A stretch of 64,000 bases of DNA from Pleurocapsa sp. FMAR1 (lineage in GTDB: Bacteria > Cyanobacteriota > Cyanobacteriia > Cyanobacteriales > Xenococcaceae), in NCBI RefSeq assembly GCF_963665995.1, contig NZ_OY762512.1:2976001-3040000 (forward strand), given 5' to 3'. Positions 18,681 to 51,109 of this stretch are shown in pieces. Under the pieces are notes generated by a model. The model worked only from the letters and a program-made list of their open reading frames with translations, was not told where the DNA came from and did no database searches. A program made the translations under genes and the position numbers. Positions within the stretch are counted from its first letter, which is position 1. Each line of letters begins with the position of its first letter.

Positions 18681-18844
18681 GTAGGGTGGGCATGATTTTG
18701 AATCTATAGAGTGCAATTAATAATTTCTCTAATGCCCACCATTATTAAATATTGGCGATTATTATTATTATTTGGTGATGCGGTGGGCAATAACCAATTC
18801 TCAAAACGCTAATTTGTTTGTATTATTTTTTGCCCACACCCTAT
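18681..18844. repeat. REP-like palindromes left of the transposase gene
   Basis: Two nested inverted pairs occur here: ggtgggcat (18685-18693) with atgcccacc (18732-18740), and gtgggcaa (18783-18790) with ttgcccac (18830-18837). The outer ends are gtagggtgggca at 18681 and tgcccacaccctat at 18831-18844. The same unit, with the same order of halves, lies to the right of the transposase gene. This is the layout of a BIME, a pair of REP sequences around a RAYT gene. Confidence 0.8.
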
Positions 18845-18905: not shown

Positions 18906-19445
18906 ATGCCTAACTATCGAAGAGTGCATATTCCAGGTGGCACATATTTTCTCACCATAGTTACCTATTGTCGTCGTCCATTATTTGAGAATTTTAGTAA
19001 TATCAATCTTTTACGTAGTGCGATCGCCAAGGTTAAAACTAAGCTACCTTTTCAAATTACTGCTGCGGTGGTCTTACCAGATCATCTACATTTTCTTTGG
19101 CAATTACCCCTCAATGATTATAATTATTCTCAAAGAATATCCAGGTTGAAAGTATTATTCACCCGTGCTTACAAAGCCAAAAATCCAGCAAATCTCGAAA
19201 TCTCCCCATCTCGTTATAAACATCGAGAAAGTGATGTCTGGCAAAGAAGATTTTGGGAACATTCAATTAGGGATGAAGCCGATCTGCAAAAGCATTTAGA
19301 TTATATTCATTACAATCCCGTTAAACATGGATTGGTTTCTTGTCCTCATTTATGGTCATATTCTAGTTTTTCTCATTGGGTAGACAAAGGAAAATACACA
19401 TTAAATTGGGGTTATACGTGCGGACAAAAAATTAACAAAACGTAG
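18906..19445 (+). CDS. REP-associated tyrosine transposase (RAYT)
   Basis: A 179-residue single-domain Y1/HUH transposase of the IS200-like superfamily, REP-associated branch. It has the HUH motif in VVLPDHLHFLWQLP (H-L-H, near residue 57), the RRFWEHSIRDEADLQKHLDYIHYNPVKHGLV segment with the nucleophilic Tyr region, and a final SSFSHWV. Unlike true IS200 proteins, RAYTs have the extended YIHxNPVKHG motif, seen here. It is framed by REP palindromes at 18681-18844 and 19441-19595, which it would cut and join. The frame is intact, so the unit could be active. Start ATG 18906. Confidence 0.92.
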   Translation: MPNYRRVHIPGGTYFLTIVTYCRRPLFENFSNINLLRSAIAKVKTKLPFQITAAVVLPDHLHFLWQLPLNDYNYSQRISRLKVLFTRAYKAKNPANLEISPSRYKHRESDVWQRRFWEHSIRDEADLQKHLDYIHYNPVKHGLVSCPHLWSYSSFSHWVDKGKYTLNWGYTCGQKINKT

Positions 19446-19595
19446 GGTGGGCATGACGAAATATATGAAGCGTGACGATTAATTGGTCAATGCCCACCAT
19501 AATCGATATTTAATATTGATGATGGTTTGATTTGGTAAGCAACGAGCTATTCTTGAAACGATAATTTTCTCTAGTTATTTTTTGCCCACCCTACG
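19441..19595. repeat. REP-like palindromes right of the transposase gene
   Basis: cgtagggtgggca (19441-19453) and its exact inverse tgcccaccctacg (19583-19595) enclose a second pair, ggtgggcat (19446-19454) with atgcccacc (19490-19498). The unit overlaps the last codons of the RAYT gene. Just to its right gtgagcgatcgctcac (19595-19610) is a 16-bp palindrome centred on a HIP1 octamer. The remaining bases to 19788 look like the untranslated leader of chlP and show no gene. Confidence 0.8.
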
Positions 19596-19800
19596 TGAGC
19601 GATCGCTCACTAAAAAAGTAACGTTTGTTAACGAAGTTGTTAAGCAGTATTTCAACTTTAGACAAATAAAGCGCTCGGCTGAAAATAAGGCAATACAGCA
19701 TGATAATATCCATTTCAGGATAAATAGGGAGAAGCTCCTAATTGAGTCACGTTTGTCCTCAGCTTCAAAAAAGATTTTATAGACATTCAGGAGAAAAACT

Positions 19801-33886: not shown

Positions 33887-34283
33887 CTAATAAAATAAGA
33901 CAGCTTGCCTATGGCGCGATCGCAAAACCTACAAATTATCTGAAATATAAAAAAAAATGATACAAATTAAGTGACGGGGTGACGAGAAGCGTATTCACAA
34001 GTAGCAAGTAACAAGTAAAGATATGCAGCTAGTTAAACTGTCCCAATAGCTAGTTAATTTTGCCTCTACTTCCGAAAACTTTTTACTGTCTTGGTGCGCG
34101 TTCCCTTGCGCCCTTCGGCGACGCGGGGTCGCACCGCTTTTTACTTGTTACTTCCCCAAGTCCCCAAGTCCCTCAACCGTAGCAAATATTTAAGTATTTT
34201 ATCTTACATTTTAGCCATAACAGCCTTGAGTGATTACGTATTTTATATATTTTTTTCCTGAAGCAATATTTGATAATATTGCT
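33887..34283. other. Intergenic region glmM to ccs1 with a hairpin repeat
   Basis: No gene is seen. It contains a HIP1 site at 33917, AT-rich stretches, and the GC-rich repeat hairpin described separately. Just after that hairpin lies a short tandem cccaagtccccaagtccc (34154-34172), a small repeated unit. Confidence 0.4.
34093..34135. repeat. GC-rich palindromic repeat module
   Basis: ggtgcg (34093-34098) and cgcacc (34130-34135) close a hairpin that holds a 30-base module (34101-34130) identical at 26 positions to 279-308. Same family as the blocks at 227-617 and 39404-39476. Confidence 0.6.
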
Positions 34284-39403: not shown

Positions 39404-39476
39404 AAAGTCCCCCAAAATTGACGAGCGACCCTGCGTCGGCGTAAGACGCAAAGGAACGCGCGAGTTGGGGGACTTT
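39404..39476. repeat. 73-bp palindromic element
   Basis: Perfect 12-bp ends, aaagtcccccaa (39404-39415) and ttgggggacttt (39465-39476), enclose an inverted copy of the 279-308 module (gcgtcggcgtaagacgc at 39433-39449). The order of parts equals the outer parts of the larger block at 227-617, suggesting this is the basic form and the other a copy enlarged by nested insertions. Confidence 0.7.
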
Positions 39477-48898: not shown

Positions 48899-51109
48899 AT
48901 GGCTGAACCAATTCGCATTTTGATGTGCGCTCCCGATCACTACGACGTAGACTACGTAATTAATCCCTGGATGGAAGGCAATATCCATAAATCCTCACAA
49001 GAGCAAGCCACAGAACAGTGGTCTAAACTAAATTTTGTCCTCAATGATTTGGCGGAAGTGGATTTAGTTCAGGGACAGCCAGGAGTGCCTGACATGGTGT
49101 TTACCGCGAATGCAGGTTTAGTGCTAGGAGATAATGTAGTTCTTAGTCGCTTCTTTCATCCCGAACGTCAAGGAGAAGAACCCTATTTTAAGAAATGGTT
49201 TGAGGACAACGGCTTTAATGTTTTTGAGTTACCTAAAGACTTGCCTTTTGAAGGGGCAGGAGATGCCCTGTTAGACCGCGAGGGGCGTTGGTTATGGGCT
49301 GGCTATGGTTTTCGTTCAGAACTAGATTCTCATCCATATATCGCTAAATGGTTAGACATTGAGGTGTTGTCTCTGCGTCTAATTGACGATCGCTTTTATC
49401 ATTTAGATACTTGTTTTTGCCCTCTCTCAGGAGGCTATTTACTTTACTACCCTGGGGCATTTGATTCCTATTCCAATCACATCATCGAAGATCGTGTGCC
49501 AGTCGAAAAGCGGATTGCGATCGCCGAAGCCGATGCGATTAATTTTGCCTGCAATACCGTCAACGTCGGACAGTCAGTCGTCATGAACAAGGCTAGCGAT
49601 AGTCTTAAACAAAGTTTGAGCGATGCAGGTTTTACCGTCATTGAAACACCGCTAACAGAGTTCCTTAAGGCTGGTGGTGCAGCAAAATGTCTAACTTTAA
49701 GAATTAATGAGCCTGTATTACCAAATATTCATGGTAGTAGTCCTGTAGAAAGCCGTGTGTTGCACATGGAAGGACATCTTTTAGATGCAGGAATTATGAA
49801 CCGTTCGCTCGATCTTGTAGTCGATAACGGCGGTAGTTTTAAAGTACTCAATTTCAATTTAGGTGTAGAAAGACAAAGCACCTCTAATGCAGATGTCCGC
49901 ATCTCTGCCCCTGACCATAAGATTATGGAAAAAATCATGAGTCAGCTAATTGAAGTTGGGGCAGTTGTCCCCGATCATGATGGCAAGAATGCAGTCACCG
50001 AAGCCTGTGACATGACAGGAGTTGCTCCTGATGACTTTTATGTTTCTAACATCTATCCCACCGAAGTTAGAGTTGACGAGCAATGGATCAGGGTGCAAAA
50101 GCAACGCATGGACGGGGCAATTGTCATAAGCGATGCGACCCACAGCTTGCGAAGCAAGCAAAGTCCTGCGAAGCAGGACGATGGCACGAATAGTGCCGTT
50201 CGCCGACAGGCGCAAGGGAATGCGCATCAAGACAGCGATGATTCTGGAAATGTAACTGCTGAGTGTAAGATACTGCGAGATTTAGACAAAGGCGATCGCG
50301 TGGTTGTGGGCGTAGATGGTATTCGTACCATCCGTAAAAAGTCTAATCGAGAACTAAAAGCCAAAGAAGAATTTAGCTTTATGGGTGCAGGGGTATCTAG
50401 TGAACGAAGAGTAGAACTTGTAGTCGAACAAATTGCCTGGGAACTACGTCAAATTCGCGATCGCGGTGGCAAAGTGGTAGTAACCGCAGGTCCTGTAGTT
50501 ATTCATACAGGGGGAGCAAAACATCTTTCTAGCCTAGTACGAGATGGTTACGTTCAAGGCTTGCTAGGGGGAAATGCGATCGCCGTTCATGACATCGAAC
50601 AGTCGCTGATGGGAACTTCTTTGGGGGTAGATATGCAAAAAGGTACTCCCGTCCACGGCGGACATCGCCACCATCTCAAGGTAATTAACTCAGTACGCCG
50701 TTACGGTAGCATCGCCAAAGCAGTAGAAGAAGGTGTGATTACCAAAGGCATTATGTATGAATGCGTTAAACATAATATACCCTTTGCCCTAGCTGGTTCA
50801 ATTCGCGATGATGGTCCTTTACCTGATACCCAAATGGATTTAATTAAGGCACAAGAAGAATATGCCAAGCTTTTAGAAGGTACAGATATGATTCTCATGC
50901 TGTCTACTATGCTGCACTCTATCGGCGTGGGCAATATGACTCCTGCGGGAGTGAAAATGGTCTGTGTAGATATTAATCCTGCTGTAGTCACCAAATTAAG
51001 CGATCGCGGTTCAGTAGAGTCAGTTGGTGTAGTAACAGATGTCGGCTTGTTCCTCAGTCTATTGGTAAATCAACTAGACAAGTTAACTAGTCCCTATCAA
51101 ACTGTTTAA
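48899..51109 (+). CDS. argZ: Arginine dihydrolase ArgZ/AgrE
   Basis: The N-terminal domain hydrolyses arginine to ornithine, CO2 and ammonia, the first step of the cyanobacterial ornithine-ammonia cycle; in AgrE of Anabaena the C-terminal domain turns ornithine to proline. Catalytic residues known for ArgZ are present at the same numbers: N22, N71 (FTANAG), H168 (FYHLDTCFC) and C264 (GAAKCLTL). The C-terminal LOR/SDH-like part holds VVTAGPVVIHTGGAKHLSSL and GVGNMTPAGVKMV. At 736 residues it exceeds the usual 700 by 35, all in an insertion at residues 413-447 made of a palindromic repeat. The frame is kept. Confidence 0.93.
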   Translation: MAEPIRILMCAPDHYDVDYVINPWMEGNIHKSSQEQATEQWSKLNFVLNDLAEVDLVQGQPGVPDMVFTANAGLVLGDNVVLSRFFHPERQGEEPYFKKWFEDNGFNVFELPKDLPFEGAGDALLDREGRWLWAGYGFRSELDSHPYIAKWLDIEVLSLRLIDDRFYHLDTCFCPLSGGYLLYYPGAFDSYSNHIIEDRVPVEKRIAIAEADAINFACNTVNVGQSVVMNKASDSLKQSLSDAGFTVIETPLTEFLKAGGAAKCLTLRINEPVLPNIHGSSPVESRVLHMEGHLLDAGIMNRSLDLVVDNGGSFKVLNFNLGVERQSTSNADVRISAPDHKIMEKIMSQLIEVGAVVPDHDGKNAVTEACDMTGVAPDDFYVSNIYPTEVRVDEQWIRVQKQRMDGAIVISDATHSLRSKQSPAKQDDGTNSAVRRQAQGNAHQDSDDSGNVTAECKILRDLDKGDRVVVGVDGIRTIRKKSNRELKAKEEFSFMGAGVSSERRVELVVEQIAWELRQIRDRGGKVVVTAGPVVIHTGGAKHLSSLVRDGYVQGLLGGNAIAVHDIEQSLMGTSLGVDMQKGTPVHGGHRHHLKVINSVRRYGSIAKAVEEGVITKGIMYECVKHNIPFALAGSIRDDGPLPDTQMDLIKAQEEYAKLLEGTDMILMLSTMLHSIGVGNMTPAGVKMVCVDINPAVVTKLSDRGSVESVGVVTDVGLFLSLLVNQLDKLTSPYQTV
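50129..50240. mobile_element. Palindromic repeat inserted in frame within argZ
   Basis: agcgatg occurs at 50129-50135 and again at 50234-50240, exactly 105 bp (35 codons) apart. The DNA between is a row of four hairpins: cttgc-gaa-gcaag, gtcctgc-gaa-gcaggac, ggcac-gaata-gtgcc and cgcc-gaca-ggcg; the last recurs at 412-422. Removing one agcgatg plus the row restores a natural protein sequence (IVIS-DDSGNVTAECK). This is the footprint of a small element with a 7-bp duplication. Confidence 0.85.

Follow-up and report, generated by a model that had tools for sequence, protein, structure and literature searches.

The argZ/agrE gene in the 64,000-nucleotide stretch of cyanobacterial DNA that we analysed (the window) carries, in frame, a 105-bp segment that very probably belongs to a family of small non-coding hairpins of the Pleurocapsales, apparently mobile, frame-safe and able to grow. 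An earlier note on the sequence had read this segment as a palindromic mini-element inserted in frame, and its membership of a hairpin family (here R1) and the empty sites in relatives bear this out. The gene and the parts of its insert are:

48899–51109, + strand: argZ/agrE, bifunctional arginine dihydrolase/ornithine cyclodeaminase, 736 aa (NF052231, 1332.5 bits, cut-off 1025)
50130–50234, + strand: the 105-bp insert, running from GCGATGCG to AAGACA; an R1 copy enlarged internally by 54 bp (covariance model; relatives' empty sites)
50132–50137, + strand: 5' arm of the outer stem, GATGCG (sequence and covariation of the stem)
50141–50200, + strand: 60-nt three-hairpin module in place of the short element's CCGCGT (comparison with short copies; locus L279 of genome G012)
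50145–50159, + strand: hairpin 1, GCTTGC-gaa-GCAAGC
50163–50179, + strand: hairpin 2, GTCCTGC-gaa-GCAGGAC
50183–50197, + strand: hairpin 3, GGCAC-gaata-GTGCC
50201–50212, + strand: hairpin 4, CGCC-gaca-GGCG, which in the short family is the inner hairpin
50223–50228, + strand: 3' arm of the outer stem, CGCATC (sequence and covariation of the stem)
50229–50234, + strand: 3' tail of the element, AAGACA (flank comparison of copies)
50235–50240, + strand: GCGATG of the host, a target sequence already resident that matches the 5' end of the element exactly (empty site L011, AGCGATGG)

The argZ insert and the R1 family

We gathered argZ orthologues from the genus, the family and the order, and read the corresponding turn in about 100 of them. 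The insert is absent from all of these (~100/~100), which have a short turn between ...MDGAIVI and ...AECKILRDL that differs in length by a few residues among relatives; the 105 bp that had been counted as extra relative to the family are therefore extra. The nearest empty site (L011) reads ATTAGCGATGGTTCTGG, where the window has ATAAGCGATG...AGCGATGATTCTGG. An unrelated linker of the same length, which the earlier note had set against its own reading, does not occur in close relatives. The argZ of a distant genome (G047, L010) differs in being the sole one with a much longer turn, filled by an unrelated Gly/Lys-rich low-complexity insert; because this lies at the identical turn, the turn appears to tolerate insertions repeatedly.

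All four hairpins that the earlier note saw inside the insert are present, and the outer stem encloses them. The insert folds better than its shuffles both as RNA (z = -4.7; 0 of 200 shuffles equally good) and as DNA (z = -3.0; 1 of 200). It encodes the peptide SDATHSLRSKQSPAKQDDGTNSAVRRQAQGNAHQD, and the argZ reading frame runs through it without a stop, as had been claimed, although this openness alone is weak evidence because shuffled insert sequence yields one open 35-codon frame with P ~0.31.

BLASTN with the insert against its own genome (G000) found 40 places: one long near-identical copy (G000:C1:5228883-5228971, 97% over 89 nt), four with the three-hairpin module and other stem letters, and most with the 3' part only. 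The sequences at these places reveal a short element of ~51 nt. Its unit is the hairpin GCGGTGCG-ACCCCGCGT-CGCC-GACA-GGCG-CAAGGGAACG-CGCACC-AAGACA, usually of exactly 51 bases, or 17 codons. A covariance model (R1) built from 22 copies aligned all of its 54 positions to the argZ insert across 50128-50235 (33.9 bits, E 3.9e-9), with the three-hairpin module counted as an insertion. The model has at least 139 matches in this genome (150 of 1280 candidates scored) and, in a search that extended to cyanobacterial relatives, matched 27 of 27 genomes of the same family (f1), with few and sporadic matches outside it. Most matches, including intergenic ones, cover the identical 54 model positions. Three further copies lie in the window:

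264–317, - strand: R1 copy next to a block of other repeats; GGAAAG/CTTTCC subtype, as in sufD (55.8 bits)
34086–34139, - strand: full-length short R1 copy (79.2 bits)
39418–39471, + strand: more diverged R1 copy (40.8 bits)

Related hairpins, whose presence elsewhere in the genome the earlier note had proposed as a check, are thus abundant, and several lie in frame inside other genes; the hairpin it described as common to the insert and a repeat block is real, at 411-422 of the window (CGCCGACAGGCG). Positions 240-600 form a dense mixed block of short palindromic repeats that includes this hairpin and the R1 copy at 264-317. Elsewhere, element copies are nested in the loop of other copies of themselves (G000:C1:3473782, 1833993, 4122063 and others). 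The family has no match in Rfam, and a plasmid collection gave one 34-nt match, in Chondrocystis sp. NIES-4102. We found no description of the family in the literature searched (most subscription journals being outside its scope), which is not proof that it is undescribed.

Copies in other genes, frame safety and growth

We read the open reading frame context of 80 copies, which is a sample rather than a complete census: 17 lie within long frames that stay open across the element, and another 4 may be interruptions. Two of the 17 (3473782, 533688) resemble repeat arrays more than genes. The element is held in frame by at least ten ordinary protein genes, argZ included, and most host genes exceed the cut-offs of curated families. 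The named hosts are an anthranilate synthase component I-like protein (trpE-like), D-Ala-D-Ala ligase (ddl), SufD, CobN, a cytochrome P450 (two copies), a PIN protein and a four-helix-bundle protein, together with the transposon genes TnpB, IS1 and ISL3, also in frame; a PKS-like host is named from a reading of its translation alone. These in-frame copies occur in both orientations and different phases, in unrelated genes and at unrelated sites. Empty sites in relatives give net insertions of 51 and 51 bp in the P450 gene, 48 bp in the PIN gene and 45 bp in ddl, the cleanest of these comparisons giving 51 bp; in sufD and the trpE-like gene, whose surroundings are composite, the net length is not cleanly set. 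The relatives have in-frame copies of their own in tnpB and tnpA genes, an Hsp20-like gene and a P450 gene (names from translations).

At two of these hosts, cobN and the trpE-like gene, the hairpin elements are nested in GTAGGGGCGTTTCGCGAAACGCCCCTAC-type palindromes (G000:C1:559319-559372 and 136798-136851; L162, L169); in cobN the palindrome that surrounds the element is older and of the GTAG type, and such palindromes are found at the identical place in some other species. The P450 gene of another species (L206, G003:C95:14919-14972), ~51% identical, holds this element at the same codon position as the P450 of this genome (PERF.ER /.S.YE.LPFGGG), reflecting either parallel insertion or an unexplained target preference.

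The consensus 51-nt unit has no stop in any of its six frames, an openness that is not rare in GC-rich sequence. Because the unit is 51 nt long and open in this way, it keeps the frame in any orientation or phase and adds 17 codons; the frame is thus preserved by the nature of the unit itself, and selection for frame need not be invoked. The argZ insert follows from the same unit by 105 = 51 - 6 + 60: CCGCGT is exchanged for the three-hairpin module, a gain of 54 bp that brings the insert to 35 codons. The module is rare, with six copies in this genome and two in G012. One of the latter (L279) lies within a short element, at the position in an ISL3-type gene where our genome has a plain 51-bp copy. 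Since the module occurs inside resident short elements both in argZ and in this ISL3-type transposase gene, elements can grow. The G012 case supports insertion of the module into a resident element, without proving the order of events in argZ itself. That such a mobile unit of whole codons, stop-free in all six readings, frame-safe and growing by module uptake, serves as a recurrent source of new protein segments is a view that we put forward tentatively.

Outer stem, element ends and routes of movement

Covariation was scored over the six outer-stem pairs in 66 distinct copies from one genome, and also in a 22-sequence set. Across the 66 copies, 100 cells were changed on both sides of the stem versus 7-24 in slid controls; the copies are related and their cells cannot be counted as independent, yet the slid controls retain that relatedness. 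The covariation score was 0.333, against 0.020-0.076 for slid partners and 0.079 for shuffles (0 of 500 shuffles as high). There are ~20 different 5' arm sequences, and in most copies the 3' arm is perfectly complementary. The letters of the outer stem are thus free to change provided both arms change together. The stem also arrived with the element, as the empty site of the PIN gene lacks it.

From 28 type-A copies we deduced the element ends as (A)|GC...AAGACA, with A nearly always at -1 and the tail AAGACA fixed. The AGCGATG that had been pointed out at both ends of the argZ insert is present (50129-50135 and 50234-50240, 105 bp apart), but the pair does not demonstrate a target duplication: the host already held AGCGATG, so the repeat consists of the element's end plus host sequence. 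Target-site duplication as a general feature was rejected, since no duplication is seen at the second P450 site or at the empty sites of the PIN gene.

The hairpin would be the substrate for copying as a single strand, of DNA or of RNA. One route, to which we give somewhat less than an even chance, is that the element is a REP moved by a Y1/HUH transposase (RAYT or the TnpA of IS200/IS605) through a single-stranded hairpin intermediate. A hairpin with a fixed AAGACA tail, a nearly constant A at -1 and no reproducible target duplication fits such a route, and the genome has seven Y1 genes, one of them a RAYT in the window. However, R1 matches around the seven are sporadic (one inside tnpB, one ~0.7 kb upstream of a tnpA, one weak), the element has no GTAG tag, and the repeats on either side of the window RAYT are its own, GTAGGGTGGGCA...TGCCCACC, and not R1.

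This REP-associated tyrosine transposase (18906-19445; NF047646, 192.5 bits) lies between GTAGGGTGGGCAT / ATGCCCACC repeats (~18681-18840 and 19442-19600) and forms with them a candidate REPtron separate from the R1 family. Its locus (L156) has no R1 match; as another repeat flanks the gene, we rejected this RAYT as the mobiliser of R1.

Movement through an RNA intermediate or by hairpin-templated copying, which has been proposed for cyanobacterial small dispersed repeats, seems to us rather unlikely. The many different outer stems, most of them perfectly complementary, and the nesting of copies in copies of themselves speak for it, but the covariation could also come from selection for single-stranded DNA hairpins.

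The ArgZ protein, comparable elements and implications

ArgZ/AgrE homologues are represented in the PDB by 6LRF and 6JUY, and the catalytic residues listed in the earlier note (N22, N71, H168 and C264) are all found in this ArgZ. The dihydrolase model matches residues 4-268 and Saccharop_dh_N residues 286-385; PF21571 resumes at 451, at profile position 28, and the insert therefore splits the first C-terminal region. An AF2 model, itself only moderately good (mean pLDDT 65), is least confident in the insert (pLDDT ~26-33) and shows residues 414-450 as disordered, between strands 406-412 and 452-458. The insert occupies a beta-hairpin turn within the C-terminal half (PF21571), and not, as had been proposed, the joint between the dihydrolase and ornithine parts. 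The predicted structure is compatible with a working enzyme, function itself not being demonstrated thereby.

We infer that the segment is translated; as a disordered loop, it would have a neutral or slightly harmful effect. Disruptive insertions would be purged, and insertions in surface turns would persist. That the segment has been recruited to serve a function in the protein, at a domain joint, is improbable: the host is a multidomain enzyme whose relatives tolerate length variation in this turn, but the insert is confined to this species and predicted to be disordered, and the sites and phases of the other copies are unrelated. Slightly less probable still is an intervening sequence, whose 105 nt would be removed after transcription or translation to leave a protein without the extra segment; the strong RNA structure would suit it, but the copies that sit in frame in unrelated genes, in either orientation and in various phases, need no removal. 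Ordinary variation in linker length, unrelated to any repeat, can practically be dismissed: the linker does vary by a few residues, and the G047 insert there is unrelated, but the argZ insert matches both the R1 covariance model and the near-identical 89-nt copy.

The best-known palindromic elements that lie in frame are those of Rickettsia, where they are commonly put down to reduced genomes and weak selection. These Rickettsia palindromic elements (RPEs) occur in frame in many protein genes, conserved ones included, and an RPE-bearing Gmk stays active (PMC2229807). R1 is likewise a palindromic repeat in frame within unrelated protein genes, but it is found in free-living cyanobacteria and its unit is 51 bp, whereas RPEs measure 105-146 bp, a range that only expanded copies such as that in argZ (105 bp) reach. 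Intragenic GTAG/CGTC REPs are short palindromes, of which some fall within open reading frames, across several species (PMC3733652), and GTAG REPs exist in cyanobacteria. Unlike them, R1 has ends of the form (A)GC... and ...AAGACA, and no GTAG or CGTC tag at the stem base; its hairpin is also longer and two-tiered, and, in contrast to RAYT-associated REPs, its copies do not flank the window RAYT gene. The small dispersed repeats (SDRs) of Nostoc and relatives reportedly described by Elhai et al. in 2008 are said to be 21-27 nt long, to share a common hairpin with compensatory changes, and to be nested in themselves and in other repeats. R1 shares with them a conserved hairpin with compensatory changes and nesting in its own copies or other repeats; it differs from the SDRs so described in its 51-nt unit, its occurrence in Pleurocapsales and its repeated in-frame placement in proteins. 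In contrast to a MITE, R1 has no reproducible duplication at empty sites and no partner transposon among the Y1 elements examined. R1 works like RPEs and resembles SDRs, but can at most be called a putative member of either group.

The comparable family described here, which a free-living cyanobacterium carries in argZ, ddl, cobN, sufD, a trpE-like gene and a P450 gene, offers a second system for asking how such elements move, why their length is frame-safe and what they do to host proteins, questions that are testable because empty and filled sites exist among close species. The element appears to add short extra protein segments without breaking the proteins. If this is true, a free-living photosynthetic bacterium would have, in a frame-safe and growing element, a means by which new protein segments arise again and again.
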